NCBI GenBank assembly: GCA_017623455.1
Contig: JAGAPA010000027.1
Location: 1 to 51,595 of the forward strand
Length of the DNA stretch: 51,595 nucleotides
DNA from: Clostridia bacterium
GTDB taxonomy: Bacteria; Bacillota; Clostridia; Christensenellales; Pumilibacteraceae
Direction of reading: 5' to 3'
Part shown: in pieces, positions 19,365-36,700 of the stretch
Layout of the letters: every line of letters starts with the position of its first letter
Position numbering within the stretch: the stretch's first letter is position 1
Notes under the pieces: model-generated
Database searches by the model: none
Told to the model about the DNA's origin: nothing
What the model saw: only the letters and a program-made list of their open reading frames with translations
Made by a program: the position numbers and the translations under genes

Positions 19365-21245
19365 TTATTCTTTGGTAACAGTAACCGTTCCGTTGCCGTC
19401 GTCGTTAAGAACGTATCCGTCCATAATCTTAGCGAAGAATTCAGCGGAAGTGGTGGAGCAGTTTTTGAACGTTCCTCTTTCTGCCTCGCCTGCAAATCCT
19501 CCGATAATAGCGGTTGCACCGTCTGCTACGGTTACAGTACCTGTTGCGGAGCAATTAGTACATGTAAGGGGCATATTTCTGTTGCCACCGTCAGCATTGA
19601 TCGCGGTTGTAGAACCGATAAATCCGCCTGCTGTTGCACCGCCTGTTACAATATCAACGTCAGCACTGCAGCCGGTAAGCTTGTGACCGCCCTTACTGCT
19701 TTCGTTGTTGTTCCAGCCCGAGTCGGAGACGAATCCGCCAATAACCGCCGTCGTGCTTATAACGTTACTTGCATCGATTTTTCCCTCGGTCGTGCAGTTG
19801 TTTGCTATGGTGTGCGCGCCTGCATCACCGATAAATCCGCCAACGTCAACAGTTCCGCTTACAACGATATCAAGTCCGGTTACGTCACAGTTGTTGAACG
19901 TAGGCTGTCTGTGTCCTGTCTGAGTCTGACCTGTAAATCCGCCTACGGCACAATCTCCGTCTGTCTCGCTTACGGTAATCTTAAGCCCTTTAATATCAAC
20001 GTTATCAATGGAAAGATCTTGGTCCATATTGCCGGAGAATCCACCGATAAACTTAGCTCCGCCCGTAGCGTCGATTTCAAGGTTTTCAACGGTACAGTTG
20101 CTTGCGCTCGTCCAGTTGAAGTATCCGTAAATTCCGCCTACCCAAGCATCTTTATTGGCTGTGGTTACCTTGCAGTCTACGATATGAACGTTGTTAAGTA
20201 TGGAAGTATGACCGTTTGCTGCGAGAATACCGAAATACTGTTTGCTTGATGCCGTTCCTACAACGGAAGAGAGAGTAAGGTTCTTAACCGTTGCAGGGTA
20301 CTGACCGAGGTTCTGAATAAATCCCGCTCTGCCAGCACTTCCGTCAAGAGTGAAGTTGCTTACGGTGTGATCTCCGCCGTCAAACGTTCCCGAGAACTGC
20401 TTGATGGGTGTCCATTGATTACCGTCAAGGTTTATATTGTAATCAAGAACAACGGTTTTGCCTGAAAAAGTATTTCCGCTTGCCGAAAGAACACTTAATC
20501 CTGCCAATTCTTCTGCTGTGGAAAGGGTGAAGGTCTTGTCGGTTGTGTTGTACCAGGAGGTGTCCGCAGTTCCGTCCCAAACGTCTTCGGGTTCGGGGTA
20601 TTTGGCACCTGCGTCATAATTTTCGTCAAAACTGTCGCTCTCGGATGCAAGCTGCGTAGCCGCAAGGTATACGGAGAACGAAGAACCGATTTTAAGACCC
20701 TGATATTCGTTGCCTGCACTTTCCTGCATCTTGAGAACAAGAGTGATTGTATCGCTTGTCTTTGCTTCAAGTTCGCCTGCCGCGTCAAGATTTGCAAGAA
20801 CGTCTTTAAGCGTTCCTATCTTTTTATCAGCAGGTATGCTTGCTCTGTCTGTGATCTGTACTGCAGGGTCTGCGTAATATACGTCAATAACCTCTGCAAG
20901 CTTGGAAACCTCGCCGTCTGCAACGATGCTTATGTTGTATTTAAGTGCAAGCGTGCCAACGTTCGAAATTTTGATATGCCTTGCTTCAGCGTAGCCGGGC
21001 TCCCACTTGTCGTTATTGAACATGGGTCCTGCGGATGCGTCCGTCCAAGTAGCACTTGTAGGATCGGTTTTACCGTTAGCCCATTCCATAGTTACGTCAA
21101 GTGTTCCCGAAGCAATGATGTTGCCACTGCTCGTAACAGAGTCCGTAAACCAAGCGAAGGTCGTGCCTGCAAACATTGCAAGGCAAGCAAAAACAGATAC
21201 GATTGCCATAACCAAAGCTGATTTAATGCTTTTCCTTTTTGCCAT
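19365..21245 (-). CDS. Secreted TasA-type protein with SipW-dependent signal and GLUG repeats
   Basis: A 626-residue exported surface protein. Residues 1-45 carry the SipW-type signal, with the cleavage-site signature MFAGTTFAWFTDSVTSSGN followed by IIASGTLDVTMEW, as in TasA/camelysin matrix proteins. Residues up to about 210 form the TasA-like beta domain (WEPGYAEARHIKISNVGTLA). Residues about 225-620 hold GLUG-type beta-helix repeats, seen as a series of GGFxG turns (VGGFTGQT, VGGFIGDAG, IGGFVSDSG, AGGFIGST, IGGFAGEA). There is no LPXTG anchor. The start at 21245 has an AAGGAG 9 bases upstream; the longer frame is rejected. Neither a SipW peptidase nor a second matrix gene is in the window. 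Likely an adhesin or biofilm matrix protein. Confidence 0.85.
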   Translation of the reverse strand: MAKRKSIKSALVMAIVSVFACLAMFAGTTFAWFTDSVTSSGNIIASGTLDVTMEWANGKTDPTSATWTDASAGPMFNNDKWEPGYAEARHIKISNVGTLALKYNISIVADGEVSKLAEVIDVYYADPAVQITDRASIPADKKIGTLKDVLANLDAAGELEAKTSDTITLVLKMQESAGNEYQGLKIGSSFSVYLAATQLASESDSFDENYDAGAKYPEPEDVWDGTADTSWYNTTDKTFTLSTAEELAGLSVLSASGNTFSGKTVVLDYNINLDGNQWTPIKQFSGTFDGGDHTVSNFTLDGSAGRAGFIQNLGQYPATVKNLTLSSVVGTASSKQYFGILAANGHTSILNNVHIVDCKVTTANKDAWVGGIYGYFNWTSASNCTVENLEIDATGGAKFIGGFSGNMDQDLSIDNVDIKGLKITVSETDGDCAVGGFTGQTQTGHRQPTFNNCDVTGLDIVVSGTVDVGGFIGDAGAHTIANNCTTEGKIDASNVISTTAVIGGFVSDSGWNNNESSKGGHKLTGCSADVDIVTGGATAGGFIGSTTAINADGGNRNMPLTCTNCSATGTVTVADGATAIIGGFAGEAERGTFKNCSTTSAEFFAKIMDGYVLNDDGNGTVTVTKE

Positions 21246-21273
21246 TTTTTGTTTCTCCTTGTATAGATATTTG

Positions 21274-21298
21274 TTCATTGAATAATATATTCAGCGAA
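21274..21298. promoter_or_regulatory. Palindromic site 1 in the TasA/GLUG leader
   Basis: TTCATTGAAT-AATAT-ATTCAGCGAA. A 21-base stretch (21280-21300) recurs exactly in inverted orientation at 21409-21429. It sits just after the predicted transcription start. Confidence 0.6.
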
Positions 21299-21312
21299 CA
21301 TTTGTATTAAAA

Positions 21313-21341
21313 ATTATATCACTATACGCTTTTCGTGTCAA
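21313..21341 (-). promoter_or_regulatory. Promoter of the TasA/GLUG protein gene
   Basis: On the minus strand a perfect TTGACA (21341-21336), 17 bases and a perfect TATAAT (21318-21313). Confidence 0.8.
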
Positions 21342-21410
21342 CTAAATTTGACAATTTTTCTTTTTTATATAGATATTATTGCAATAAGATATTAAAAGCT
21401 ATGCTATTTG

Positions 21411-21435
21411 TTCGCTGAATATATTATTCGGCGAA
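21411..21435. promoter_or_regulatory. Palindromic site 2 upstream of the TasA/GLUG promoter
   Basis: TTCGCTGAAT-ATATT-ATTCGGCGAA, nearly perfect, about 70 bases upstream of the -35 box. With site 1 it could allow looping by a repressor. Confidence 0.6.
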
Positions 21436-21537
21436 TATTTTTTTGTGCAAATATTAAAATACAGCGAAATATTTTTTAATCAAAAGCCATATTTCTGACA
21501 AATTTTTAAGCTTATATAATACAAGTGCATAAAATAA

Positions 21538-21582
21538 TAAAAGTACCGTTTTGGCGCATACGTATTACGCTAAACGGTACTT
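21538..21582. terminator. Terminator of the AAA-FtsK-DnaE-like operon
   Basis: Long stem AAAAGTACCGTTT...AACGGTACTTTT with the GCG/CGC extension inside, T-rich on both sides. Confidence 0.75.
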
Positions 21583-21630
21583 TTTTAATGTTTTTTAGCA
21601 GGTTTTTTATTTTGGACACAAAAGGCCATA

Positions 21631-22530
21631 TTAAAAAATAGGATTTTGAATTAAACAAGCTATTACGTAAGTTTTAGAAACTGTATATTGTTTAATACGT
21701 TGTGTGTATAGCAAAAAATCCTTATTTTTTACTGTTGAAAGCTCAATTAGTTGTTCTTTATATAATAGGCGGTTGTTAGTTGAGTTTAGTAGTTTACAAA
21801 CCGTGTTATCTTCATTAAAAGGGAATATTTTGTCAATTTGAAAACCGAAAAGCTCAATTGTTTTATCAAGAATTTCACGTTGAGAGAAATTCTTATTTTC
21901 GACTTTTAAATCTGAAATTTCTAATATTGAAAAACTGTAAAATCCCAAATTGCAAAGGTCGTCTGTGCTAACTAAGGCTACGTAATCTTTGTATTTAGAA
22001 CCGTCTTCCATTGTAATAGAGTGTTCTTTAATTGATAAAGAAGGAGCGGTTTTTTTAGGGTAGGTAAAATACGTAGCAGAGTTGTTTGCCCCTTTTACGA
22101 AAAGAAAGTCATTGTATTTTAGATAAAGAAAGTTAAGAAGTTTTGCCTTCTCGCCCTTTTTGACGTAGAAGCAAATTGATGGCAACTTTGTGTTTAGATC
22201 GTTAAAATAGAACTTATGTGGTAAGTTGTAATGTAGAGAGTTTACTTTTGTAATTCCCAAAACGTAGTTAATAAATAAACTGTTTTCTTTACCATTCAAA
22301 AAATAATTTTCGCTTAAAAATTGCGTTACGTCCAAATTAAATAAAACAACGTTTTCCAATCTCCAACGTTTTATAAGATTAAGTTCGTTATCTAGTCTAT
22401 TTAATTCTTGAGAACTGAGCGTTTTAGAGTTTACTACTAAATTTAATACTTTTTCTAATTGCGTTTGGGGCTCGGCAGTATTAGAAGGTCGTGGCACGTT
22501 ATCAATTTGTTTTAAAACACGTAAATTCAT
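21631..22530 (-). CDS. Divergent DNA polymerase III alpha (DnaE) palm-like protein, catalytic residues lost
   Basis: A 299-residue soluble protein, last in a three-gene operon and 2 bases after the FtsK-like gene. Without a database I align it by eye to the DnaE palm. Residues 45-56 (RLDNELNLIKRW) match the RLEYEL.I helix. Residues 89-104 (YVLGITKVNSLHYNLP) match the YALGITxxDPLxYxLL segment and lead into KFYFN for ERFLN. Residues 180-200 (DDLCNLGFYSFSILEISDL) match the GLVKFDFLGLRTL strand, and DKIFPFNEDNTVCKLLNS matches IPLDDxxxFxLLxS. The catalytic PDxDxDF reads LPSICFY, and the third aspartate (KFDFLG) reads SFSILE. The GRGS loop is GKENS. The region between is shortened. So this looks like a non-catalytic palm relic, perhaps a structural or DNA-binding part. 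Homology is inferred, not computed. Confidence 0.6.
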   Translation of the reverse strand: MNLRVLKQIDNVPRPSNTAEPQTQLEKVLNLVVNSKTLSSQELNRLDNELNLIKRWRLENVVLFNLDVTQFLSENYFLNGKENSLFINYVLGITKVNSLHYNLPHKFYFNDLNTKLPSICFYVKKGEKAKLLNFLYLKYNDFLFVKGANNSATYFTYPKKTAPSLSIKEHSITMEDGSKYKDYVALVSTDDLCNLGFYSFSILEISDLKVENKNFSQREILDKTIELFGFQIDKIFPFNEDNTVCKLLNSTNNRLLYKEQLIELSTVKNKDFLLYTQRIKQYTVSKTYVIACLIQNPIF

Positions 22531-22532
22531 AA

Positions 22533-23234
22533 TTATCTCCTTTTGAGTGGGGTATTGATTTTTAGTTTAATAGGTTTATTTTCATTTAAATCAATATATA
22601 ACAATTCGCCTTTTTGTAATTTTTCCGCGCCTTTTTCATAAATTGCAAAAGAAGAGTCTACGCTGTTAGATAATTTGAAAGCAATTCGAGTGGGGATATT
22701 AGCGCTAATTTCGGGAGTAATAACGTTAGGGAAAATGCGTTGAGTTGCAATAATTATATGTATACCCGCGCCGTGCCCTTTTCTAACAAGTTCAGATAAA
22801 AGACTTTGTATTTTGTTTTCGTGTTTACAATCAACAGCGCCAATTTCGTCGATAACTACTATTATTCTATCTAATTTTGCGTTTGTAGATTCGTTGAATT
22901 TGTCAATATTTACAACCCCATGTTGAGAAAACAAGTCGTATCTTTTATTCATTTCTGAAACCAAAGATAAAAAAGAAGAAAGTGTATTATAATAATGATT
23001 AATTTTAACGTGTGAAGAAAATTCGCTAAAATCTGTTGCTTTGCAATTTATTAAGGAAATTTTGACGGAAGTTTGTAAATAATTGTCAATTAAATACCTA
23101 ATAATATCGTTTGTTAAAACCGACTTTCCCGAGCCTGTTTTTCCTAAAATCAATATATGCGGAGCTTTATTTATGGCGCACATGAAAAGTTTGTTGTTTT
23201 TCATTATTCCAATTGGAACGTTAATATTTTTCAT
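22533..23234 (-). CDS. Minimal FtsK/SpoIIIE-type DNA translocase ATPase
   Basis: A 233-residue ATPase that keeps only the FtsK motor core. Walker A is GKTGSGKS at residues 31-38, preceded by the family signature APHILIL. Walker B is IIVVIDEI at residues 124-131. IIATQR (161-166), NIPTRIAFKLSNSVDSS and GAEKLQKGELLY (202-213) are typical FtsK/SpoIIIE motifs. There are no membrane helices and no C-terminal gamma winged helix, so sequence-directed septal translocation is unlikely; instead it probably moves or remodels DNA in the cytoplasm. It lies 13 bases after the AAA+/M41 gene and 2 bases before the DnaE-palm-like gene, so the three act together. Confidence 0.85.
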   Translation of the reverse strand: MKNINVPIGIMKNNKLFMCAINKAPHILILGKTGSGKSVLTNDIIRYLIDNYLQTSVKISLINCKATDFSEFSSHVKINHYYNTLSSFLSLVSEMNKRYDLFSQHGVVNIDKFNESTNAKLDRIIVVIDEIGAVDCKHENKIQSLLSELVRKGHGAGIHIIIATQRIFPNVITPEISANIPTRIAFKLSNSVDSSFAIYEKGAEKLQKGELLYIDLNENKPIKLKINTPLKRR

Positions 23235-23247
23235 AAGATATAATCCT

Positions 23248-24552
23248 TTATAAACTAACGGAAACGATTTGACAAGAACTTTTAAGTTTTTGAATATCTT
23301 CGGATGTCAAAACGTGTTTTTGAGCAAGATTTTGAGCAATTTTTTCGAAAAAATCACGATTTTGAGCTATAATCTCTTTCGCTTTTCGGTAATATTTTTC
23401 AATTTCGGCATTTACTACGTATTCCTGCATTGCAAGTCGTTGAGCGGAGTCTTCCTGATATCCGAACGTACATAAATTAAGTCCGCAGGTTCCTATTTGT
23501 GTTATCATCTTGTAAGTATCGGATACAGCGCGCGACAGGTCTTGTTTTGAGCCTGCGCAAACTATTCCATATTTTTGTTCAATTCCTGCCATACCGCCAA
23601 GAGCGCAAACGATACGAGATTGTTTCCAATAGATAGGAGAAAAATTTTCGTCTTCATAATAATCGGTAAAGCCACCGTATTGATTGTATTTATTATGAGC
23701 GCAAACAATAGTTACGCTATTAGGACACAGAATTTCCGACACAACAGCGTGGCCTGCTTCGTGATAAACAATTTGAGAATAAGTTGCGTTAGGATTGGAT
23801 AGGTCATATGTTTCATTTCGATTAAATTGTAAGGATTTAATATCGTACACCGAACGCAAATACGTATTTAGAACGTGTTCCATAGTAATGGATTTTTCTC
23901 GTTTATAGCCAGCATAAATTCCAGCTTCATTAATAAGCGATTCGATTTCTGCGCAAGAGAGCCCTTCCAAAATTCGCGCAAGTGCAACGATATCCATATT
24001 CTCCACAATTTTCTTACTTCTTAAATAATGACTAATAATAGCTTGAGCATCCTTTCCCGTAGGAATTTTTATTTCTAAAATTTTATCAAATCTACCAGCG
24101 CGACGTAGTGATGTCGGCAAGTTCCTTATTACGTTAACTGTTGCTATAACAAAAACACGTTTTCCCTTTATGGAATCTATGCACGATTGAACAGTAACGT
24201 ATTCTTCAGCATCCGGATGTGAACCATCTCCGTTAGCAAACTTATCCATATCGTCCAAAAAAACGATGGAAGGAGCGTTTTTGATTGCCTTTTCAAACGT
24301 GGATTTTATAGTGGCAACAAACGTTTCGCGCGGTTGGTCTTTTTTGCACATAAACGCATTAAGTCCACTTTCTTCAATTAGAGCGCTCGCCATCATAGTT
24401 TTGCCAACTCCCGGTTCACCGTGCAAGAGCAATCCTGTAGGAGCGCAAGCTCCAAGATTTTCATAAATTGTGTTGTTTTTCAAAATGTCAGCAATTTCTT
24501 TTAGCTCTTCTTTAATTGTCTTGTATCCTATAATTTCGTTAAATTTACACAT
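23248..24552 (-). CDS. Soluble AAA+ ATPase fused to an M41 (FtsH-type) metalloprotease
   Basis: A 434-residue ATP-dependent protease. The AAA+ module has Walker A GEPGVGKT (45-52), Walker B IVFLDDMDK (96-104) and the RRAGRFD arginine-finger segment (150-156). The peptidase has HEAGH (264-268), the zinc-binding HExxH, and a likely third ligand in the GSKQDL segment, matching FtsH. Unlike FtsH (about 600 residues) it lacks the N-terminal membrane helices, so it is cytoplasmic. The ATG at 24552 has a GGAG 9 bases upstream; the longer frame to 24624 runs across the promoter and operator. First gene of the AAA-FtsK-DnaE-like operon. Its substrates are unknown; a regulated unfoldase-protease in a DNA-linked system is inferred. 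Confidence 0.85.
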   Translation of the reverse strand: MCKFNEIIGYKTIKEELKEIADILKNNTIYENLGACAPTGLLLHGEPGVGKTMMASALIEESGLNAFMCKKDQPRETFVATIKSTFEKAIKNAPSIVFLDDMDKFANGDGSHPDAEEYVTVQSCIDSIKGKRVFVIATVNVIRNLPTSLRRAGRFDKILEIKIPTGKDAQAIISHYLRSKKIVENMDIVALARILEGLSCAEIESLINEAGIYAGYKREKSITMEHVLNTYLRSVYDIKSLQFNRNETYDLSNPNATYSQIVYHEAGHAVVSEILCPNSVTIVCAHNKYNQYGGFTDYYEDENFSPIYWKQSRIVCALGGMAGIEQKYGIVCAGSKQDLSRAVSDTYKMITQIGTCGLNLCTFGYQEDSAQRLAMQEYVVNAEIEKYYRKAKEIIAQNRDFFEKIAQNLAQKHVLTSEDIQKLKSSCQIVSVSL

Positions 24553-24583
24553 AGTTCGTTCTCCTTTTTTTAATTCTGGAGTT

Positions 24584-24617
24584 ATTGTATCAGGTTTGAT
24601 GTACCGAAAATAGTACA
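24584..24617 (-). promoter_or_regulatory. Promoter and 18-bp operator of the AAA-FtsK-DnaE-like operon
   Basis: Minus strand extended -10 TGATACAAT (24592-24584) with no good -35. The -35 position is occupied by the palindrome TGTACC-GAAAAT-AGTACA (plus strand 24600-24617), which is also found at the WYL gene promoter. Confidence 0.65.
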
Positions 24618-24635
24618 CAAGCAAAAAGATAGAAA

Positions 24636-24663
24636 AAAGGTTGACAACTCGTCAACCTTTTAC
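24636..24663 (-). terminator. Terminator between the UDG-like gene and the AAA operon
   Basis: An 11-bp perfect stem (AAAAGGTTGAC with GTCAACCTTTT), a 5-base loop and a T-run on the minus strand. It separates two transcription units of the cassette. Confidence 0.8.
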
Positions 24664-24681
24664 TAAGCAAAGATTATATTT

Positions 24682-25446
24682 TTAGGATTCGTATTTACCC
24701 CACGCGTTTTCTAAAATTTCTTTAAATTTACAGAGTCCGTAATTATTGTAGCCGTTATATTCTCTGTACCACCACGCGCAAGTGGGATGGGGGACTTTGT
24801 GGAATTTATTCTCATCTAATTTTTCATTATAATTTTTCTTATAGTATTTTTCAAAATTATTAAACGCTTTTGTGGATAGAAAGACAATTAGGCTGGGTTT
24901 TAATACGTCAATAACACTAATAAGCGTTTTTGTAGCTATTTCATTATCTCTATTAATATTTGCAATTGATTTTCCATACTCAAAAGCTGGTCTTTGATAA
25001 AAATTCATAAAAGCAAAATTATGCATAAGAGAGTGTTCTTTTTTTCCATAATAGGCATTAATGGGCTGATTAAACATTCCATTTGAGCCCTTAAAGTTTT
25101 TACCAGCGGGAGAAATATATCTATTAACTACGTGTCTTGTAGCGTAATTTTCAAAATCCTTATAAAAAACATTTTCAAAATCTGAACTGTTGAAAGACAA
25201 AGCGTTATCATACCAGTTTAGTTTTTCAAAATCCTTAGCTACGTCTCTTTTGTTTTCATTAGAGAGATAGTGGCTTTCTCCAATTAGTAAAACCCGTTTT
25301 TCATGTTTATTGTAGTCTTTTCCGACAAAAGGAAGCATTTCCGGGTGATTTTTATAGTGTTCTATTTCTAGTAAATCGTTGTCGTATTCACAATTGTTAT
25401 CGCCTTCAAAATAAAAGTTTTCTAAATTATTTCTAGCTAAATTCAT
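24682..25446 (-). CDS. Uracil-DNA-glycosylase-fold-like protein
   Basis: A 254-residue protein with motifs arranged as in the UDG superfamily. Residues 53-61 read LLIGESHYL, placed where UDGs have the GxDPY water-activating loop. LKPSLIVFLSTKAF (172-185) matches the central strand that precedes the ligand pocket, and PHPTCAWW (209-216) takes the place of the HPS/HPSPLS minor-groove motif. HNFAFMNFYQRP near residue 145 could match the uracil-reading strand. Whether it keeps glycosylase activity cannot be told. The GTG at 25455 is too close to the GGAG, so the ATG at 25446 is preferred. It follows the WYL gene by 15 bases and is probably co-transcribed with it. Confidence 0.5.
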   Translation of the reverse strand: MNLARNNLENFYFEGDNNCEYDNDLLEIEHYKNHPEMLPFVGKDYNKHEKRVLLIGESHYLSNENKRDVAKDFEKLNWYDNALSFNSSDFENVFYKDFENYATRHVVNRYISPAGKNFKGSNGMFNQPINAYYGKKEHSLMHNFAFMNFYQRPAFEYGKSIANINRDNEIATKTLISVIDVLKPSLIVFLSTKAFNNFEKYYKKNYNEKLDENKFHKVPHPTCAWWYREYNGYNNYGLCKFKEILENAWGKYES

Positions 25447-25461
25447 TTTTTGCACTTCTCC

Positions 25462-26457
25462 TTATTTATATAAATTTTGTATTTCTTTAGCATCGTTTTT
25501 AATGTCGTCGCAAAGTGATGATGGGGATAGAACTTTTACGTATTTTCCAAATTGTAACAACCAAAAGCGCATAGCTTTTAAGCTCGCAAATAATGTAAAT
25601 TTAAGATTGTTGTCACTTAGTTTTTCCACTTGAATATTTTTTCCAAATTGATCGACAACCATATCTATCATACTATCAACCTGTTGAGTTGTTTGGAATT
25701 CGATTTTCGCAGGTGTATCAAAATATAAATAAGGTAAGCAATTAGATAGCTTGCCTATGTTTAAGCCATTTTTGCAATCCTTAACTTTTTGAATTGGAGT
25801 ATAATCTTTTTCTAACATTTTGATGTCTAACATTTTGTCAACTCTTAAAAATGCAAGGTTGTCGTGATTGTCAAAACAGCAAGCAAGATAATAATTGCCA
25901 TTTTTCATAAGCAACTGATAAGGGCTTGCAAAGTATTTATTTTCGCGTCTTTTTATCAATGATAGTTTAGTGGAGTAGGTAAGATAGTGAAATTGTATTT
26001 TTTTCTTTTTTTCTATGGCTTCACACAATTGTTCAACTTTCAAAAAGAATTGTTTATCATCAGTTTTTTGCCACTCGTCTAAATTAATAACGTGTTTTGC
26101 ATAATTTTTAAAATAGTGACCACCTTCGCATGAAAGTTTATCAATAAGTTCTTTTGTGTAATTTGTGCAAACGTTCTTATTTGATAAAACAGAATCTATT
26201 AATAGCCTAAGTTCACCCAGTTCAAACTTTCGCTCAGCTAAGTATACTCCTGTCGAATCTGATATAATATCGTATCCGGCATGTTGCAAAAATTCAATAT
26301 TGCGAGCTACGGCTTTCCGTTCACAATCAACGTCGTATTGCACTCGCAAAAGATGAATTATGTCTTTTTGACGAAGTTTGTGGTTGCTGTCAGAAAAATC
26401 CTGTAATATTTCTAATATGCGTAAAATTAATAGTTTTTTGGGTTCAAAGTTTTCCAT
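25462..26457 (-). CDS. WYL domain transcriptional regulator
   Basis: A 331-residue regulator. Residues 1-80 form a winged HTH of the HTH_11 type (RILEILQDFSDSNHKLRQKDIIHLL). Residues about 135-235 are a WYL domain with IQFHYLTYS, SPYQLLMKNGNYYLACCFDN and LAFLRVDKM, a fold that senses nucleic acids or nucleotides. Residues about 245-331 are the C-terminal WCX-type extension (FDTPAKIEFQ ... FGKYVKVLSPSSL). WYL regulators frequently repress phage defence operons. It is the first gene of the cassette; its promoter and that of the AAA operon share an 18-bp palindrome, so it likely represses both. Confidence 0.88.
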   Translation of the reverse strand: MENFEPKKLLILRILEILQDFSDSNHKLRQKDIIHLLRVQYDVDCERKAVARNIEFLQHAGYDIISDSTGVYLAERKFELGELRLLIDSVLSNKNVCTNYTKELIDKLSCEGGHYFKNYAKHVINLDEWQKTDDKQFFLKVEQLCEAIEKKKKIQFHYLTYSTKLSLIKRRENKYFASPYQLLMKNGNYYLACCFDNHDNLAFLRVDKMLDIKMLEKDYTPIQKVKDCKNGLNIGKLSNCLPYLYFDTPAKIEFQTTQQVDSMIDMVVDQFGKNIQVEKLSDNNLKFTLFASLKAMRFWLLQFGKYVKVLSPSSLCDDIKNDAKEIQNLYK

Positions 26458-26491: not shown

Positions 26492-26525
26492 ATTATAACA
26501 TAAGCCTTGTGCCGTTTTAGGTACA
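26492..26525 (-). promoter_or_regulatory. Promoter and 18-bp operator of the WYL gene
   Basis: Minus strand extended -10 TGTTATAAT (26500-26492) without a -35 box. The palindrome TGTGCC-GTTTTA-GGTACA (plus strand 26508-26525) covers the -35 position, as at the AAA operon. Confidence 0.65.
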
Positions 26526-26626
26526 TACAGTTTAGCGTAATTATTATAGTACTAATTCAAGATAAAGTCAATTATTTGTGTAGGAACTATTATACCAGCA
26601 ACGCCATTATAGCAAAAAATGTATAA

Positions 26627-27679: not shown

Positions 27680-27774
27680 GTAAAAGGTGGAGTTTATCTA
27701 TATTTTTTTGAGATTTTCAAAAATTTGTTATGGATAAAAACAAAAACATCAAAATAAAGACACGAGGAGAAATT

Positions 27775-30700
27775 ATGAAAAACAAAAAATGGATAGTTTT
27801 GGCATCCTTGCTTTTGGCACTTGGAGTACAAGGCGGAGTGGCTATAGGCAACGAAACAAAGCCCGAAGAGAAAGACGTGAGTGAAAAGTATACCAAAAAT
27901 ATGCTTTTGGACGGAGCGGTGAGTGAGAGAAAGGCTGAAAGTAAAAACGTTGCGTATAGCGTGGAATACTATTTTGAAAACGGTGACGGACGTTTTGTTT
28001 TGGACAATAATCTTTCTTACGAAAAATTGGGAGAAGAGGGAGAAGAGGTAAGTGCGGACGCTGTTGAAAACGAAAACTATGCTATCGTAAGCGAACTATC
28101 CACCGTTTCCAAAACTCTTGCAAGCACCAATAATATCTTACGGGTTTATTACGGCTTGAAAAAATGTGATATTGCAGTAAAGTATTATTTCGAAAACGTG
28201 GGTGGTGAGTACGTAGAAGACACAAGTAAGTCGTATAACGTAACTGTATCTGCGGGAAAAACTGTCAGAGCAAACGTAATATTTCCACAAAATTACGAGC
28301 TTGACTATTCTTTAAGCACGCTCGAAGTTGAAGCTAACGATGAGGCTGAGCTGAGTGTGTACTATTCGCTTAAGAGTTATCCGTATACCGTGGAGCACTA
28401 TTTTGAAGAAAACGGGGAGTATAAAATAGACGAGAGCAAAACTCAGACGCTTTATGCAAAGCTTGGCGAAAGTGTAAACGTTGTAGCGCAAAACGTAGAC
28501 GGATATGTTTTTAACGAAAGCATAAGCAAAGCCGGGCTTGTAATAAAGGAGAAAAACAACGTAATACGCCTTTATTATACCGAAAATTCAAGTGAAGTTT
28601 GTGATTTTACCGTTAATATATATTATGAAAAGGAAAATGCGGACGGATTCAGCAAAGGAGAAACCAAAAACGTAGAGGGAACAACGCTACAAAGCCTGCT
28701 TGCAAGTAATCTTGGAGCAAAGGAGCATTTTGTTTTTTCTAAGTATAATGCAGACGGAAACGTAGTAGATTTGTATTATAGTCTTGAAAGGGTAAACCTT
28801 TTGGTGGAATACTTATTTGAAGAGAACGGCAACTGGGTAAAGAAAGAGGCTCTTAGCAAAAATTGTTCCGTAAAATACGGTAGTGAGTTTACTACGCCCA
28901 CGCACGGTATATATAAAAATAGAATAAACGCAGAAAAGTCCACTTTGAGTATAGACAAAGTGTTATCTTCTTCTGTTATCTCGGTTTATTACGGGCAGGA
29001 AAAGTACGAAGTTCAAATATGTGACGTGTGCGCTCTTTCTTCGCCGTTTATGGACAGTTATAACGAAGTAATCGCAAGCAGTTACGTTGCAAAACTTAGT
29101 AAGGATAGCGAAGAGTTTGACGTTGTGTACAAAGACGGCGCGTTTGTTGCTTCCCTTGCTGACGGAGAATATAATTTAGAAATATCTTCTCCTGCTTTTG
29201 AAGATAAGTATCAGTCAATAATTTACGTAAATGGTGGTAAGATTTCGGTTGAGTGCGTTTCGCAATTTAGTGAGCTTGCATTAAATAACGGTGGAAGTAC
29301 AACGCTTGTGTACGATAATGACGCTAACGTATGGGCAAATCTTGGACAGGAAGCATCGTCATTTTCGTATATTACCGCAACGGCAAGTGATTCGGTTGCG
29401 ATCTCTTTGACGGTAACGGCTCGCCACGAAAAATACGTGGCAAACAGTAATTGGAGAGATAGTGAGCATGCGGTAGGTGTTGCTTTGGTAAACGCACAAA
29501 ATACGGATTCTACTATATTTATAGGTCTGTATCAGAACGGAGTAAAAGTAAAAGCAAACGGTAAAAGCTCCATTATAACAAGAGATTATTTCAAAAGCTT
29601 TACACAAGGCGGTTCGCAAACGAGCAATAGCACGCTTTCGGTTGCTCGGTTGAGTAACGGCGAAATTTATATCTATCGCGACGGAAGGTACGTTGGGTGG
29701 ATAACTAGTGACGGCTGGTGTAACAACGTTCAGTTTTCTAATAATTGGAAGACGTATGTGGGTGAAAAATCGTATGTAGCCACAAGAACGGAAGCTCCAA
29801 ACGACTATAAGGAGTTTGTTTTCTCGGATATAGGTTATACGTATTCTTCCAATATAGTAAACGGTTTTGCAGGAACTGAGTTTTCGTTTAAGACAAGCGA
29901 CGGATTTAGCATAACCGAAAAAACATTACACAGACAGGCAATCGAAACGGTAAATGCAACAGCTTTGGACGGCAAGGTCTTAAAAGCAGTGCTTGTAAAC
30001 GGCGAGCATTATATGGATGCAACGGTTACGGGAAAAGACATTGCCCTTACCTTATCCGTAAATCCCACAAAGCACGTTAGTAAAACCAATGATATTTCGC
30101 TCATATACGAAGACGAGAGATATACGGTGGAAGTGTCGGGAAGAATACAGATCAGCGATTGGTTGAGTTTGGCGGAGAGTATAACCGTAAAACTTGTGAG
30201 CGAGCAAGGCATAACTTACGTTTGTTCGCCAAACGCACAAGGCATTTATAAGATAAATGTTCCAAAGGGCAAGTATACGGTGTTTGCAACGTGCGGAAAA
30301 TACGTTTCTGAAAAGCAAACGGCTGAAATAAACGATAATACTTCAATAAGCCTTATTGTGGAAGAGTTGGATTTTACCAAGTACAACTATTCTGGTCAAG
30401 ACGACGTTGTATGGGTACACGAAGATGACAATTCAATGATGTTAAACGGCAGAATAAACCAACAAAAGGTCGTTGACTTATTTGCTCAGTCTTATTCAAG
30501 TAATTTTGCATACTCTATTGATATGATTCAGGCGTGGAAGAATCCTGAAAGCAAGTATAATACCTCTGATGACGTAACGGGCGTACTGCTTAGACATTCG
30601 TCAGGCAAGTATTTGGGATTCTACGTTGAAAGTTCAAATTCGAGAGTTAGAATAGTATCAAATGCCGGTGACTGGTCCACAAGAGTTAATGTTCCCGTAA

Positions 30701-33700
30701 AGGCTGATCTTTACCGAAAGACGGATGAAACTACTCATAATATTACCGTAGTTAAAAATAACGGAGCAATTTATTTCCTTATAGACGGAGTAGTTCAATT
30801 TGTTTTGGACGGAACGAAAATCACAGACGGCTCAGGACTGGAGATTACCAATTACGAATCGTTTGATTATAAAGGCTCGACTACGATAAAGCTACTAAAC
30901 GAAACGGTAACCGAGATATTAAACGGTGGAAACGTAACGGCAGGCGTTGGTAGCGGATTTAATAATGCGGTTGTAGGAACGGTAGATAAGACGGGCTTTA
31001 AGAATGCGATTGTAACACAAAATCAAGAGCTTATAAGCTCAATTTTGATAACAAGTTACGGAATTGATGTAGTAAAAGACGAAAATATTATGGTAACTCT
31101 TGTAAGCAACGGCTATGACAAGATAAACGGTGAAATTTCTCAAAATTCACCCCTTCGAATTGTTGTTGAAGCAAAGCCGGGTTATGCATTGGACTACGTA
31201 AGGATAAACGGAGCGGACGTATATTTAAAGTCGTACAGTAAGGTTTATACTATCGACTTTGATCAGATAACGAAAGATACGGTAATAGAAATAGGTTCAA
31301 AAGAAGAAGAAATCGTAAATATCGTAGGACAACTTACGGAAAGCGTAGACTACGATAAAGCAATTGTTAGTTATTATGCCGACTCGGTTGTGTATACGAC
31401 AACGCCCAATAATAACGGAGAGTTCAGCATTAAAGCATTAGGAGAGGAAGGAATCGTGCAGGTAGTATTTGCAGACGGAAAAGTCAGAAACATTCAAATC
31501 AGCGATGTAAACGAAAACTTGGATTTGGGCGACGTTTCTCCCGTTACTTCAGCTTGGTCGCACAAGGATTTTAGTGTAGAGGCGGCTATGGACGTAGTTG
31601 CAAGTGATGATAGCAAATATGTATTTGCGATAGGCACAAGCGAAAGAAGTTCGGACAAAAAAGGACATTTCTACGTTTATAGCGTAGAAGAAAATAGAGT
31701 GGTTGCATCTTTGGAAAATAACTTAGGCAACTGCAGACAAATTGCTTATGAAAACGGTTATTGTTACGTTACTGCTCGTGATGATGGTATGTGGGTTATT
31801 GACGTAACTGACTACTGTGATGAAACTGTTGATTACGCTGATGCAAAGCCGAAGATAATATGCCATTACGATTCCGTGGAAATGGCAACGGGTATTATCG
31901 TTCACGATAGCACGGTGTTCCTTGCAAACAGAGTGTACGGAGTGGAGGTTGTGGACGTAAGCAATCCTTACGAGCCTGAGTTTATAACCAATATCCAGAC
32001 GGGTGAAGTTCAATCGCTTGACGTAAATAACGGGTTATTATTTGCGGGAATCTGGGGAGAGCAAAAGGTTTTAGTTGTGGATATTAGCGACCTTGCAAAT
32101 GCAAAAACCGTATACTCAATACCGCTTGACGGACGTGGCGACGGAGTGTTTGTAGAAGACGGTATTTTATACGCTGCAACAGGACACCACGCAAGGGGTG
32201 ATTATTCAACGACTACTTCGCCTGCTTGGGGTATGGGTAACGGACTTGAAGTATTCAAGGTGGACAAAAACGGATATGATAAAATTTTCGGTATAAAGTT
32301 CGATAAAGGACATGAAGACGGCTTAGACATGTGGGAAGCTGTAAAGGCAGGCAACTACGTGTATGTAACCAATACCTTTAACGGAACGTATATTTATGAC
32401 GTAACCGATATATACAATCCAGTACAAGTAGAACATCTGCATTGCGATAGAACGAATGCGTCGGCAAATAATGCAACAGGCGTTGCAATCATTGACGGGT
32501 CTATGTTTGTAACGGGCGGAAGAAACGGCTTGTTCAGATATGATAATCCAGACATTAAAGCGCCTACGCCAAATTCTATAAGACGTGGAAAGATTACAAA
32601 GTGTGGTAAAACCGATGCGAAGATTAGCGCTTTGGGAATAACCGATTATCAGATTGTTAAAACCGAAGGACAAGTACGTTCTATCGTTGTAACCGACAAG
32701 TATCTTCTTACGGCAAACGGAAACGAAGGAATATGCGTGTACGATAAGAAGGACAATACCTTATTAAATACCATTCATACAGGCTACATAGTAAAAGAAC
32801 TACAAATAGACGGAAACTATCTGTATAGTGCAGAAGATGCAGGCGGTATTGCTATTTACGATCTTGATGCAATCCAAAATAAGGGCGCAACTCCGTTATA
32901 TAGATATGACGCTACAACGCTTGGAAAAACGGATAACGTAAAACTTGTACAAACAATAAAATGCAATACAGCGGTGGAAGGTCATCCCCTTTCGGTAAAT
33001 CAGTACGATATAAGCAAATCCGTGACTGCCGTTGCTATAAGCGAAATTAGAATTGCGAATTATAATAACAGAAAATATATGCTTATGCATGCAGGTGGAT
33101 CGTGGGCATATATCGCGGACGTAACGGACATATCCAACGTGAAAGTTGTATACAAGTGCATGATAAACGCCGGTCTTATGTATGCCAGAAATTTTGTACA
33201 AAACGTAGTTGAAGATAAGTATTTTGTACTATCGGCAAATTCTGTGGGTTTTGTATATCTTAATATTGACGGTAGCGGAATTGCCAGAAATAGCGAAAAT
33301 ACCGATTATCTATATCACAATGCTTGGAGAACTTCGCCCACGGCAGTCAGACTTGGAGTTGTCGGTAACGGAATTACTACGGTAAACGTGAACGGAGAAT
33401 ACAAAGTAATGTTTACAACCGGACACGGATACAGAATTTTAGACAGAGAGGTTCAGTCTATTTACGACAATCCTATTTACGGTAACGTTGTGGGTGGTTG
33501 GCCTGTTGTGCTTGGCGACGTATTGGTGGTAAGTAACAGAGTGGGCGGAATATTAAGTATTTATGATATTAGTGATATAACTAACCCCTCTCAGATTGCT
33601 TATTATGAAACAAACGCTTCTCCCGACCTTGCGACAAGGGACGGAAACACGTTATACGTGCCGATTGGAAACTATGGCTTTATGGTAATCAGTCTTGACT

Positions 33701-33702
33701 AA
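27775..33702 (+). CDS. Giant secreted protein with MucBP-like repeats and LVIVD propeller
   Basis: A 1975-residue secreted protein with a signal peptide (KKWIVLASLLLALGVQGGVA). Residues about 60-420 contain five MucBP-like repeats, each with a start like VEYYFENG or VEHYFEENG and an end like IRLYYTEN or VYYGLK. Residues about 500-700 and 865-1050 are two lectin-like beta-sandwich modules (AVGVALVN, DVTGVLLRHSSGKYLGFYVE, YFLIDGVVQFVL) joined by regulatory-like linkers. Residues about 1260-1975 form a long LVIVD beta-propeller with recurring VDVSNPYEPEF / VTDIYNPVQVEHL blades. No LPXTG, SLH or membrane anchor is seen, so it is released or held by a partner. The start at 27775 has AGGAG 6 bases upstream. 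It forms an operon with the following lipoprotein gene, 16 bases away. Confidence 0.8.
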   Translation: MKNKKWIVLASLLLALGVQGGVAIGNETKPEEKDVSEKYTKNMLLDGAVSERKAESKNVAYSVEYYFENGDGRFVLDNNLSYEKLGEEGEEVSADAVENENYAIVSELSTVSKTLASTNNILRVYYGLKKCDIAVKYYFENVGGEYVEDTSKSYNVTVSAGKTVRANVIFPQNYELDYSLSTLEVEANDEAELSVYYSLKSYPYTVEHYFEENGEYKIDESKTQTLYAKLGESVNVVAQNVDGYVFNESISKAGLVIKEKNNVIRLYYTENSSEVCDFTVNIYYEKENADGFSKGETKNVEGTTLQSLLASNLGAKEHFVFSKYNADGNVVDLYYSLERVNLLVEYLFEENGNWVKKEALSKNCSVKYGSEFTTPTHGIYKNRINAEKSTLSIDKVLSSSVISVYYGQEKYEVQICDVCALSSPFMDSYNEVIASSYVAKLSKDSEEFDVVYKDGAFVASLADGEYNLEISSPAFEDKYQSIIYVNGGKISVECVSQFSELALNNGGSTTLVYDNDANVWANLGQEASSFSYITATASDSVAISLTVTARHEKYVANSNWRDSEHAVGVALVNAQNTDSTIFIGLYQNGVKVKANGKSSIITRDYFKSFTQGGSQTSNSTLSVARLSNGEIYIYRDGRYVGWITSDGWCNNVQFSNNWKTYVGEKSYVATRTEAPNDYKEFVFSDIGYTYSSNIVNGFAGTEFSFKTSDGFSITEKTLHRQAIETVNATALDGKVLKAVLVNGEHYMDATVTGKDIALTLSVNPTKHVSKTNDISLIYEDERYTVEVSGRIQISDWLSLAESITVKLVSEQGITYVCSPNAQGIYKINVPKGKYTVFATCGKYVSEKQTAEINDNTSISLIVEELDFTKYNYSGQDDVVWVHEDDNSMMLNGRINQQKVVDLFAQSYSSNFAYSIDMIQAWKNPESKYNTSDDVTGVLLRHSSGKYLGFYVESSNSRVRIVSNAGDWSTRVNVPVKADLYRKTDETTHNITVVKNNGAIYFLIDGVVQFVLDGTKITDGSGLEITNYESFDYKGSTTIKLLNETVTEILNGGNVTAGVGSGFNNAVVGTVDKTGFKNAIVTQNQELISSILITSYGIDVVKDENIMVTLVSNGYDKINGEISQNSPLRIVVEAKPGYALDYVRINGADVYLKSYSKVYTIDFDQITKDTVIEIGSKEEEIVNIVGQLTESVDYDKAIVSYYADSVVYTTTPNNNGEFSIKALGEEGIVQVVFADGKVRNIQISDVNENLDLGDVSPVTSAWSHKDFSVEAAMDVVASDDSKYVFAIGTSERSSDKKGHFYVYSVEENRVVASLENNLGNCRQIAYENGYCYVTARDDGMWVIDVTDYCDETVDYADAKPKIICHYDSVEMATGIIVHDSTVFLANRVYGVEVVDVSNPYEPEFITNIQTGEVQSLDVNNGLLFAGIWGEQKVLVVDISDLANAKTVYSIPLDGRGDGVFVEDGILYAATGHHARGDYSTTTSPAWGMGNGLEVFKVDKNGYDKIFGIKFDKGHEDGLDMWEAVKAGNYVYVTNTFNGTYIYDVTDIYNPVQVEHLHCDRTNASANNATGVAIIDGSMFVTGGRNGLFRYDNPDIKAPTPNSIRRGKITKCGKTDAKISALGITDYQIVKTEGQVRSIVVTDKYLLTANGNEGICVYDKKDNTLLNTIHTGYIVKELQIDGNYLYSAEDAGGIAIYDLDAIQNKGATPLYRYDATTLGKTDNVKLVQTIKCNTAVEGHPLSVNQYDISKSVTAVAISEIRIANYNNRKYMLMHAGGSWAYIADVTDISNVKVVYKCMINAGLMYARNFVQNVVEDKYFVLSANSVGFVYLNIDGSGIARNSENTDYLYHNAWRTSPTAVRLGVVGNGITTVNVNGEYKVMFTTGHGYRILDREVQSIYDNPIYGNVVGGWPVVLGDVLVVSNRVGGILSIYDISDITNPSQIAYYETNASPDLATRDGNTLYVPIGNYGFMVISLD

Positions 33703-33718
33703 GTAATAGGAGAAAGTT

Positions 33719-36700
33719 ATGAAAAGAAATAAAATTATCAAATCTATAATAATTTTCGTAATGATAATAGCAACAATGCTTGTTTTTAGTGGCTGTGAGA
33801 GTTGTAATGGAGGAACGAAAAAGAATTACACACTCACGGCAAACGAGAGCGTTGTTGTTACGGTGGGCGAAAGCGAACTTATAACGGTAGCCGTTTCTAA
33901 CTATGACGGAACGCCCGAGTTTTCGTACGTTAGTAGCAATGATAGCATTGCAAAGGTGGAAAATGGTTACGTAATTGGAGTAAGCGCAGGATCTGCAACA
34001 ATTACGGTAAGTGCGACGATAGACGGAAAAACACTTAGCGATACTATCAGCGTTACTGTAAATGCCAAGCAAAAAGCAACTGTAACGTTTATTGTGGACG
34101 GACAAGTTTATGACAGCAAAGAATATGACGTTGGATCTATCATAGAATTGCCCGAAAATCCCACTAAAGAAAGTACCGTTCAGTATTCGTATACCTTTGA
34201 AAAATGGGCAGGTTACGAAAACGGCGCAACGGTTGTAGGAAATGCTGAATACGAAGCTGTATTTACCGTTTCCACAAATTCGTACGTTGTTAAATTTGTA
34301 AGCGAGGGTAAGGTTGTAAAAGAAGAAACTTTGCTTTATGGCGAAGTGATAAATACACCTACTACTATGCCCACAAAACAGGGCGATGCGCAGTATTCGT
34401 ACACCTTTGACAAGTGGGAAGGCTACGAAAATGGTGCAACCGTTGTAGGAAACGTGGAATATACTGCAAAATTCAAAGAAAGCGTAAATGAGTATTTGAT
34501 TACGTTTATAGCAAACGGCGTTGTCGTAAAAGAAGAAAGTTTGCCGTATGGTAGCGTAATAACTGCTCCCGATATTACTCCCACAAAGCAGGGCGACGCG
34601 CAGTATTCGTATGCCTTTGAAAAATGGGACGGATATAAAAACGGCGCAACGGTTGTAGGAAATGCGGAATATAAAGCAAAATTCAGAGAAAGCATAAACG
34701 AGTATGCAGTAATGTTTAGCGCAAACGGAGAAGTTGTAAAGCAAGAAATTTTACCGTACGGTAGTGAGATTGTTTTGCCTCAAAATCCTACGAAAGAACC
34801 TACCGTTTCTACCGAATTTGCGTTTGATAGGTGGATTGGATATGAAGACGGCGCGACTGTTAACAAGAATATCCAATACGTAGCACAGTTTAGCGAAAGC
34901 GTAAGAAAATACGATGTCAAAGTGTTTGAAAATGCCGAAGAAGTGTACTCTATAAAGGTTGAGTATGGTTCGCTTATTAAAGATGCATTTGCAGATTTTG
35001 CGCTCAGCGCGCCTGTTGGATACGAGTATTCTTTTGAATATGAAGGCGAATTGGTTGTAGGCGACGTAAACGTAATTGCAACTAAAAACAAAAAGAAATT
35101 TACCGTAACGTTTCTAAATGGAGCAACGGTTGTAAAAGAAGAAGTTTTGGAGTTTGGTAGCGAGATTATCGCGCCTGACGCACCTGTTAAAAATCCGTCG
35201 GTTACTACGGTTTATACGTTTGCGAACTGGCTTACGGTGGAGAGTGATGCAAGCACAGCCGTGGATTTTAGCAAGCAAATTACGGTAAGTGATAACGCCG
35301 TTTATTATGCAAGCTTTAGTGAAAGCGTAAGAAAATACAGCGTAGTATTTAGTGTAGACGGTAAGGTTTACAAAACAAGCGAACAAGAATATGGAGAACA
35401 AGTTGTTTTGCCTGAAGCCGAGCCTGTAAAAGCGGAAACGTCGTCTACCGTTTACAAGTTCTTGTACTGGAAAAATTATATCGCTGGAGATCAGGTGTTT
35501 GGCGATATGGAATATGATGCTGTATTTAGCGAAACTCTTAAGAAGTTCACCGTAATTTATATGGTAGAAGATGAAGAATACGATAGTCAGGAAATCGAGT
35601 ACGGAAACGTTATCAGCGTAGACGAGCCTACAAAGGGAGGCGACGGAGAAGTATTTTACGTGTTCTCGCATTGGATTGTAGACGGCGCTAAGTTCGATGT
35701 TTCCACGCCCGTTACCAAAGACCTTACGATGACCGCTCACTTTACCAAAGCTTTTGCTGTTAGCGGAAAAGTGGAATTCCCAATCTCTTACTTTAATGAA
35801 AACTATGGTAAATATTATGAAGCATCCATAACTTGCGGTAATGATAGTGTAACCGTAAACGACGACGGAAGTTTTACGCTTATACTTGCAGAAGGAACGC
35901 AAAAGATAGTTGCATCTTGTGACGGATATGAAAGGGTAGAAAAAACAATTGATGTAAGCGAAGATAATACTTACGCAGGTACGCTTACGTTTACTTCTCC
36001 CGTTTATACGCTTAACAGAATAACGAATAACAACGGAGTATTAACTCCTGCAATCGGCTCGTCAACAACCTATCAAACTGCTCTTGTCAAAGCAAAGGCA
36101 AATACGAGTGAGTTTATCGTACGCTACGACTTAAATCCTAATTCTAACTTTATGACACACGGCGAACAGTTTGGGTTTAGACTTGAAAGTTCGTCTACAA
36201 AACTCAATCTGTTGCTTATTTCGTCGGGAATAAGAGTGATATTCAACAATAATTGGAGTACTAAAACCGAGTTTAAGTTCACGCAAAGTGGAGTAAACGT
36301 AAGCAGAACTTTATCAACTCCCCTTAACTTAGTTGTAAAGAAAGCTGAAGGAAAGTTCGAAATTAGCATATACGTAAATGATGTTCTTACAATAACCAAA
36401 GACCTAATGCAGGTTGAAGATTTTGACGCTGTTTCATACAAAACCCTTCTTTCTTCCTTTATCAGCGAAGATATCAGCGTAGGAGTTATGGTAAACTATT
36501 CTAATAATAAGTATACCGACAAAGCACCTCTTACCATAAGTAATTTACATTTTGCATACGGAAAAGACGTTGTTGAAAGTTATGAAAACACGTTGTATAC
36601 CGTAAGCGGAAAGGTAACACTTCCCACTACCAATTCGTTTGGCGAAAACTTAAATTTGGATATTTCTTCCGTTAAGCTGGTTATAAACGGAGCGGAAAAT

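Follow-up and report, generated by a model that had tools for sequence, protein, structure and literature searches.

Gene content and transcription units

This study concerns a window of 51,595 nucleotides, which is a whole contig (C51) of the 2.4-Mb draft genome (77.6% complete) of a Clostridia bacterium, and within it a locus of five genes at 21631-26457. A sequence-only reading had proposed these genes, lying on one strand and AT-richer than their flanks, as a candidate new multi-gene system. The five open reading frames (ORFs) are indeed all on the minus strand and none overlaps another, while the G+C content is 0.309-0.363 in five 1500-base intervals over the locus compared to 0.355-0.473 in the remaining intervals.

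Gene 1 (25462..26457) encodes a WYL-WCX transcription regulator of 331 amino acids, as originally labelled, and is the predicted owner of the promoter box described below. Gene 2 (24682..25446; ORF from 25455, ATG at 25446) encodes a protein of unknown family with GESHY and HPT motifs. Gene 3 (23248..24552) encodes a cytosolic AAA+/M41 metalloprotease of 434 amino acids, gene 4 (22533..23234) the motor core only of an FtsK/SpoIIIE protein (233 amino acids), and gene 5 (21631..22530) a palm and finger fragment of the DNA polymerase III alpha subunit (Pol III alpha; 299 amino acids) that lacks the palm Asp pair. The Pfam matches above curated cut-offs are WYL and WCX for gene 1, AAA and Peptidase_M41 for gene 3, FtsK_SpoIIIE for gene 4 and DNA_pol3_alpha for gene 5. 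The genes form two transcription units (genes 1-2 and genes 3-5), with an intrinsic-terminator-like hairpin (24635..24661, minus strand; 12-bp stem and T tail) dividing gene 2 from gene 3. Terminator-like sites in the region number 3 compared to 3.4 in shuffles, and hence show no excess.

A shared promoter box and its predicted WYL regulator

Both units are headed by the same composite promoter, TGTAC-N8-G(T/C)ACA-N10-(-10). For unit 1 (26492..26525, minus strand), the box TGTACCTAAAACGGCACA at 26508-26525 is followed after a 10-bp gap by TATAAT at 26492-26497. For unit 2 (24584..24617, minus strand), the box TGTACTATTTTCGGTACA at 24600-24617 precedes TACAAT at 24584-24589, the -10 element again lying exactly 10 bp past the box. 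The pattern TGTAC-N8-G(T/C)ACA occurs at two places in the 51.6 kb, before gene 1 and before gene 3, compared to 0.10 in shuffled sequence. Four exact matches to the composite pattern were found in the draft genome, in a search that misses sites departing from the pattern. Two are the window promoters, and the stretches surrounding the other two contain no matrix site of 14 bits or more; a reversed control pattern gave zero matches in the same genome.

A box matrix (consensus TGTaCCAAATTTGGtACA) was trained on the upstream regions of M41 genes, the window's own M41 site included. It finds no third site at 15 bits or more in the 51.6 kb, the next best scoring 14.6. M41 relatives were sought in a species collection and the best 80 of 108 were kept. 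Sites of 11 bits or more precede 38 of 79 M41 genes, 21 of 78 WYL genes, 6/14 Pol III alpha-like, 3/10 UDG-like (uracil-DNA glycosylase), 2/5 DnaB-like, 1/4 DnaA-like, 1/4 FtsK-like and 1/3 DnaG-like genes. The background is 104 of 1543 among other neighbours and 1.5% in shuffled M41 regions; these counts omit eight loci that were near-identical or repeated, but include both of the sister genomes L008 and L009. When the Pol III alpha-, DnaA-, DnaB-, DnaG- and FtsK-like genes are pooled, 11 of 30 carry the box compared to 104/1543 others (Fisher 3e-6, relatedness uncorrected), the relatives of DnaA, DnaB and so on having been found with queries drawn from these same loci. At sites of at least 15 bits, the -10 element lies exactly 10 bp from the box for 18/31 M41 genes, 5/14 WYL genes and 6/9 other genes (seven near-identical or repeated loci left out, L008 and L009 both counted). 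Because the box sits at the -35 place with a fixed distance to the -10 element, it is most likely that the WYL protein activates rather than represses.

The assignment of the box to the WYL protein is consistent with covariation between the two. Position 6 of the half-site follows the putative WYL recognition helix, with RKA accompanying C (37 of 45 half-sites) and RR accompanying A (42 of 46). Across these two classes, 31/36 WYL proteins are concordant with their box, a value reached by 0 of 20000 permutations that were uncorrected for relatedness. The WYL family profile matches seven solved sequences, all of which are WYL proteins and which include DriD (8tp8) and PafBC. The Arg pair with which PafBC binds single-stranded DNA (ssDNA) corresponds by eye to R205 together with R/K208 in 19/24 relatives, the window protein having R and K.

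Several WYL proteins are extended by leucine-rich repeats (LRR), above the Pfam cut-off in L061:3617-5596 and L049:5945-7627, below it in L056:7412-9274 and by eye in L085:14435-16411. The L061 protein also carries a sigma-70 region 4 domain, and these extensions represent a possible built-in sigma contact. WYL genes in a conserved chromosomal context (L181-L193) have the box in 2 of 13 cases. Next to such a gene, the box precedes MutS2-like genes (by eye) in L185:8721-11129 and L187:5094-7463, which is perhaps an older use of the box. An FtsZ-like gene (by eye; 322 amino acids) lies directly behind a strong WYL box in L136:14883-15923.

A soluble M41 protease and an FtsK motor core

The start of gene 3 is likely the ATG at 24552, behind AAAGGAG, because the longer ORF from 24624 would begin inside the gene's own promoter. 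The protein thus opens directly with the AAA domain, with no membrane segment and no room for membrane helices, in agreement with the original description of the protease. In a 25-member alignment, HE.GH, the downstream Asp, the Walker A Gly/Lys, the Walker B Asp pair and two Arg residues are invariant, and gene 3 should therefore be an active protease. The AAA and M41 domains, the HExxH zinc-site residues and the Asp ligand are shared with FtsH, from which gene 3 differs in lacking the N-terminal membrane helices. A bit-score gap sets it apart as a separate subfamily: 9 of 391 class genomes (an even sample, searched with profiles of genes 3, 2 and 5) contain a cytosolic M41 match of 402 bits or more, whereas all other matches, assumed to be FtsH, score 298 or less.

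The gene 3 AAA domain also matches the IetA profiles (74 bits, PADLOC), and IetAS likewise combines such a domain with a proteolytic function. However, the protease in gene 3 is of the M41 type and fused in cis, and there is no second protease gene among the five. An IetAS assignment was rejected, with gene 3 scoring 61.4 of the 510 bits needed at the NCBIfam cut-off. In L152:9206-12211, an M41 gene with a strong box adjoins a divergent TIR-like DUF6273 protein (TIR below the Pfam cut-off).

Gene 4 was described as an FtsK motor stripped of its membrane and gamma parts, and the Pfam match bears this out, covering only the motor with no gamma-domain match. The motor core of the FtsK DNA translocase is retained, Walker A (GKTGSGKS) and Walker B (VVIDE) being intact by eye. 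The gamma domain missing from gene 4 is present in its relatives from L082 and L091. The former (L082:6438-7613) has a Walker A region that reads GGCAGSIST, degenerate by eye, and the protein is probably devoid of ATPase activity. The latter (L091:5576-8177) joins motor and gamma domain to a middle part that is FtsZ-like by eye, and lies directly behind a DnaB_C-only protein.

A Pol III alpha relative without the palm Asp pair

In addition to the Pfam match, a profile of the gene 5 family (five members) aligns with Taq Pol III alpha over two separate stretches, one in the palm and one in the fingers (E 4e-18), establishing the palm homology that had been suggested. In the profile alignment, PDIDTD of Taq Pol III alpha faces Ptlsly of the family, the window protein having LPSICFY. 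The palm Asp pair, which we take to be catalytic along with a third Asp further on, is absent in gene 5 and in the four aligned relatives. Loss of the third Asp is seen by eye only (LGFYSFSI compared to LGLLKMDFLGL in DnaE), outside the coverage of the profile match. The earlier statement that catalytic residues are lacking hence stands on the alignment for the pair and on inspection for the third. No PHP domain was found with Pfam, a further difference from DnaE and PolC. On these grounds the gene 5 product is probably catalytically inactive.

Related alterations occur elsewhere. The L178 locus, found without M41, has a PolC palm with PDFSLR replacing PDxDLN directly beside a WYL gene. Larger PolC-like proteins retain the catalytic motifs by eye, and therefore the loss of activity is not universal. 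In L008:5373-6698 and L009:4458-5780, palm and fingers are joined to a C-terminal part with weak similarity to FtsZ (Pfam Tubulin 18 of 33 bits; PDB FtsZ E 0.0016). In L007, whose contig spans 17 kb, the DnaE-like gene is accompanied by neither WYL nor M41.

Among the 391 class genomes, the gene 5 profile is matched in the window only. A tblastn search of plasmids and phages gave no match, and none of 23 pattern matches in a scan of viral contigs was confirmed; both negatives are of low sensitivity, because the plasmid fragments described below escaped these searches and surfaced only through their place beside an M41 gene. A 2013 survey of Pol III alpha proteins excluded those remaining fragments whose active site was not intact, according to the part of that report available (PMC3919608).

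Gene 2 is not recognised as a uracil-DNA glycosylase

The sequence-only reading had labelled gene 2 as UDG-like with altered motifs, and this label found no support. Neither Pfam, NCBIfam nor PADLOC gave a match, and the only hit in the four family libraries was a weak phrog match of unknown function (E 0.03). A PDB profile search returned no UDG, and HHalign comparison with three sets of relatives' UDG sequences gave probabilities of 3.5, 0.9 and 0.6%. Membership of the UDG superfamily is thus unsupported at profile level (HHalign <4%), although a GESHY...HPT resemblance persists. The GESHY motif is common to gene 2 and seven relatives, with HP(T) kept in most.

The gene 2 profile is present in 2 of the 391 class genomes. 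Outside the window, WYL or M41 is found in the locus of 8/9 gene 2 relatives, with 7/9 sitting in loci that had been selected through M41. The one relative found via gene 2 itself (L154) has neither within 12 kb. A member with 29% identity occurs far outside Clostridia, on a conjugative Pseudomonas nitroreducens plasmid (H13, NZ_CP049142.1:170754-171416).

Recurrence in other genomes

Of the 80 M41 loci, 40 have a WYL gene within their fetched flanks. Near-identical loci (e.g. L105, L106, L107, L110) are included in this count, and four of the 80, in which no M41 ORF was picked, were left unscored. The nearest WYL gene is on the same strand as M41 in 37/40, and within 300 bp in 18, of which 17 are same-strand. 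As a background, 118 class genomes contain 59 WYL relatives at E 1e-30 or better. Genes 5, 2, 1 and 4 were also searched singly in 74 family genomes. Pairs and triples of family members recur, mostly in Clostridia. Loci with WYL or M41 hold short relatives of DnaA, DnaB, DnaG, Pol III alpha (PolC/DnaE), FtsK and, more weakly, FtsZ. Several also carry McrBC, GmrSD, KAP or TIR-like genes (the TIR match below the Pfam cut-off). A Pfam tally covered 109 neighbouring proteins. A dereplicated list of 400 supplied 103, left after inspection by eye removed 47 of its first 150, and six more were hand-added as already suspected, which biases the tally as a measure of frequency. Many neighbours were named by eye, including MutS2, PrfH, recombinases, lysis genes, the McrB and McrC of L085 and the FtsZ of L136. 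In L085, M41, an extended-type WYL gene and a gene 5 relative share an island with McrB- and McrC-like genes and a dGTPase; the McrB-like gene is REase_II in PADLOC and the McrC-like gene has no PADLOC match. M41 with the box is also found on two viral contigs, in one of which it follows lysis-type genes and precedes a recombinase (by eye). The parts are hence rare and patchy in occurrence, and probably mobile.

A further case is plasmid pCY186 of Butyrivibrio proteoclasticus B316, which carries WYL, M41, dnaX, DnaA/Hda, full-length PolC and DnaB. Its M41 gene lies between two 'hypothetical proteins' that are Pol III alpha fragments of 480 and 332 amino acids, both with the first Asp of the palm motif replaced. 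The plasmid has eight boxes of 14 bits or more, all with TANNNT at 10 bp and 7/8 with five of the six TATAAT letters. They precede a small gene followed by PolC, the M41 gene, the 480-residue fragment, the dnaX operon, a WYL gene, a McrB-McrC-WYL operon and two other units. In the McrBC restriction operon, which has its own WYL gene (L222:39062-43709), the box stands before the McrB-like gene.

It might be argued that such loci are debris or spare parts of mobile-element replication, in other words replisome genes of plasmids or prophages that are in part decayed and locally regulated. The pCY186 region does hold a full-length PolC with intact motifs, DnaX, DnaB and initiation proteins, and L219 is prophage-like by eye. 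However, the ORFs are open, the promoters conserved and the match between regulator and box maintained, while the palm Asp pair is absent in all five aligned gene 5 family members; we consider this explanation very improbable. A second view, that the box is a general stress box merely shared by five unrelated accessory genes, is decidedly unlikely. The varying partner sets and the 104 other neighbours with a box of 11 bits or more speak for it. The close, same-strand pairing of WYL and M41 in the 18 loci noted above, the M41 gene directly adjoining Pol III alpha fragments on pCY186 and the finding that, in the window's genome, the exact composite pattern with matrix support marks the five-gene locus only all speak against it.

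The homologues thus share neighbourhoods elsewhere (WYL in 40/80 M41 loci, L085, pCY186) rather than occurring independently. The proposal of a multi-gene system holds as regards the shared composite promoter and recurrent neighbourhoods, and fails as regards the exact five-gene set, which was seen only in the window. A fixed five-gene system was accordingly rejected. Genes, box, spacing, covariation, recurrent neighbourhoods and altered catalytic motifs together make a well supported regulon.

That the recurring proteins are core ones (DnaA, DnaB, DnaG, Pol III alpha, FtsK, FtsZ-like and FtsH-like, with DnaX on pCY186) raises the question of whether they act as decoys or guards. UDG, FtsZ and FtsH are targets of phage inhibition. 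Altered replication and division proteins could mimic the host targets of phage inhibitors, trap or report these inhibitors, and trigger or spare the cell. Catalytic motifs are altered in window gene 5, L085, L007, L008/L009, L178, two pCY186 proteins and the L082 FtsK, the WYL proteins of L049 and L061 carry fused LRRs that pass the Pfam cut-off, and defence genes lie near some loci. On the other hand, gene 5 is only 18% identical to the aligned piece of a family member's DnaE, making a host-like surface doubtful, and M41, P0004, the L104 DnaG and the PolC-like proteins of L069, L108 and L138 keep their catalytic motifs by eye. We regard the decoy explanation as unlikely. The same low standing applies to its most developed form, an inducible 'shadow replisome and divisome' in which an ssDNA-sensing WYL protein would switch on inactive or stripped relatives of DnaA, DnaB, DnaG, DnaX, Pol III alpha, FtsK and FtsZ together with a soluble FtsH-like protease. 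When phages or plasmids take over replication, such proteins would, as decoys or guards, detect the takeover or poison it, a bacterial parallel to integrated decoys.

Relation to known systems and proposed role

DriD and PafBC are activators switched by ssDNA, as described in the portions available of the respective reports (PMC12340889, PMC11804915). According to the former, the spacing between the DriD sites, which overlap the -35 region, and the -10 element is constant, and targets include didA, bapE, recJ and dnaG. The box-to--10 distance found here equals that of the DriD sites in the same source. The window locus hence resembles the Caulobacter DriD regulon in its WYL regulator, its palindrome over -35 at a fixed -10 distance, and its replication and division targets. 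It differs in the box (ATACGAC-N7-GTCGTAT for DriD) and the host group, and the available part of the DriD report (PMC12340889) mentions no M41 protease or inactive polymerase. PafBC shares the WYL-WCX architecture, action at the -35 position of the polymerase complex and, judged by eye, a putative WYL-domain Arg pair, but is, in the part of the report available, a heterodimer with a -26 motif (PMC11804915), whereas the window locus has a palindrome and one WYL gene. BrxR-type WYL regulators likewise accompany inverted repeats beside defence genes; the accessible portion of that work (PMC9122601) describes a repressor, whereas the box position and fixed spacing in the window suggest activation. 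Inactive polymerases of the ImuB type provide a precedent for a catalytically dead relative kept as an accessory protein, going by the part of the source at hand (PMC12926913). ImuB belongs to the Y family and gene 5 to the C family, and no RecA-type partner is present among the five genes.

These parallels bear on a further explanation, namely that the locus is an accessory DNA-damage or fork-rescue module serving the cell itself, with no anti-invader role, comparable to the DriD regulon and the ImuB mutasomes. DriD-like promoter architecture and regulon content, boxes before the MutS2-like genes of L185 and L187, RtcB (Pfam) and PrfH-like (by eye) neighbours, and the place of ImuB in mutasomes, as far as the source portion cited above covers them (PMC12926913), are in keeping with such a module. 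Its patchy occurrence (cytosolic M41 in 9/391 and gene 2 in 2/391 class genomes) is less so, as is the location of some loci in islands with McrBC-like, GmrSD or KAP genes and of two on viral contigs. Overall this module appears a fairly unlikely account.

Our preferred reading, to which we assign an even chance of being correct, is that a DriD-like WYL activator brings a protease and altered replication proteins into play against replication stress or invading DNA. The two transcription units would constitute a single regulon, in which the DriD/PafBC-like WYL protein is predicted to bind the palindromic box TGTaCC-N6-GGtACA. Activation would probably occur upon binding of ssDNA from damaged or foreign replication forks to the WYL domain, and would yield the gene 2 protein, the soluble AAA+/M41 protease, the FtsK-like DNA motor and the probably inactive Pol III alpha. 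The inactive polymerase and motor may engage DNA or parts of the replisome, the protease removing proteins there, such that replication of damaged or invading DNA is halted or remodelled; a protease, a DNA motor and an inactive polymerase would suit the clearing or blocking of forks. While the regulon is well supported, we infer the ssDNA ligand, the activation and the output of the products. The locus would belong to a broader network of accessory genes under WYL control, found mostly in Clostridia, some of which encode replication and division proteins in minimal or inactive-looking form. Restriction, GmrSD, KAP and TIR-like neighbours in several loci favour a role against invading DNA. Some neighbours (McrBC behind the same box, GmrSD, KAP, TIR-like, dGTPase) likewise point to defence, as suggested in the sequence-only reading, as a candidate role.

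Several observations weigh against the DriD-like reading. The full five-gene set appeared only in the window in gene-by-gene searches (no joint five-gene search was made), and roughly every second M41 locus lacks a WYL gene in its fetched flanks. The class sample has eight other M41 genomes, of which three carry WYL in the fetched stretch, four do not and one has too short a contig; these loci are not independent of those from the species collection (e.g. L147 and L092). No box of 11 bits or more precedes 41/79 M41 and 57/78 WYL genes, and L085 shows none of 15 bits or more before its WYL, M41 and DnaE-like genes. A third recognition helix class (RK then S, T or N) is mixed at position 6 (A 21, T 8, G 8, C 7), and both the permutation and the Fisher test lack a correction for relatedness. 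A box over the -35 region could also serve a repressor. Finally, the gene 4 motor looks ordinary, its nearest relatives in family genomes being larger FtsK frames.

The regulation proposed in the DriD-like reading is of a known kind (WYL, with the ssDNA type inferred), and the novelty lies in the effector set. PADLOC 2.0 reported no named anti-phage system, only WYL, AAA and FtsK/HerA-type domain matches for genes 1, 3 and 4 and none of any kind for genes 2 and 5. No description of an effector set including inactive-looking C-family polymerases was found in the open-access literature searched. If the DriD-like reading is correct, inactive relatives of C-family DNA polymerases would be regulated parts of an accessory stress or immune response, and ssDNA-sensing WYL control would extend from Caulobacter and mycobacteria to gut and rumen Clostridia, tied to a restriction operon. 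With the box and the helix-to-base rule, the regulon could be identified across clostridial genomes, and B. proteoclasticus B316, whose plasmid pCY186 is complete, is available as a cultured strain.

Other features of the locus and its surroundings

A sigma-70-like promoter, TTGACT-N17-TATAAT (26543..26571, minus strand; 11/12 in a consensus scan), lies upstream of unit 1. It is suggestive only, as a possible basal promoter of the WYL regulator; the scan found 26 such sites in total compared to 24.5 in shuffles, i.e. no excess. Past the last gene, an inverted repeat (21531..21592, minus strand; 21-nucleotide arms, 86% complementary) is a possible terminator, although it is missing from the terminator-scan list. 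The stretch 21282-21437, between the locus and the next minus-strand gene (19365-21278), holds a perfect sigma-70 promoter (TTGACA-N17-TATAAT, 21341-21313) and a repeated TTCGCTGAATATATTATTC element. A recurrent family of 267-321 amino acids with the motif YLASWGMxRGSSFLLQ was seen in other loci (L007:12564-13367, L061:5580-6545 and L091:1358-2254), the L007 member having no Pfam match. On the other side of the locus, plus-strand ORFs of 1990 and 2146 amino acids (27730-40159) adjoin it, the first resembling a secreted repeat protein by eye.

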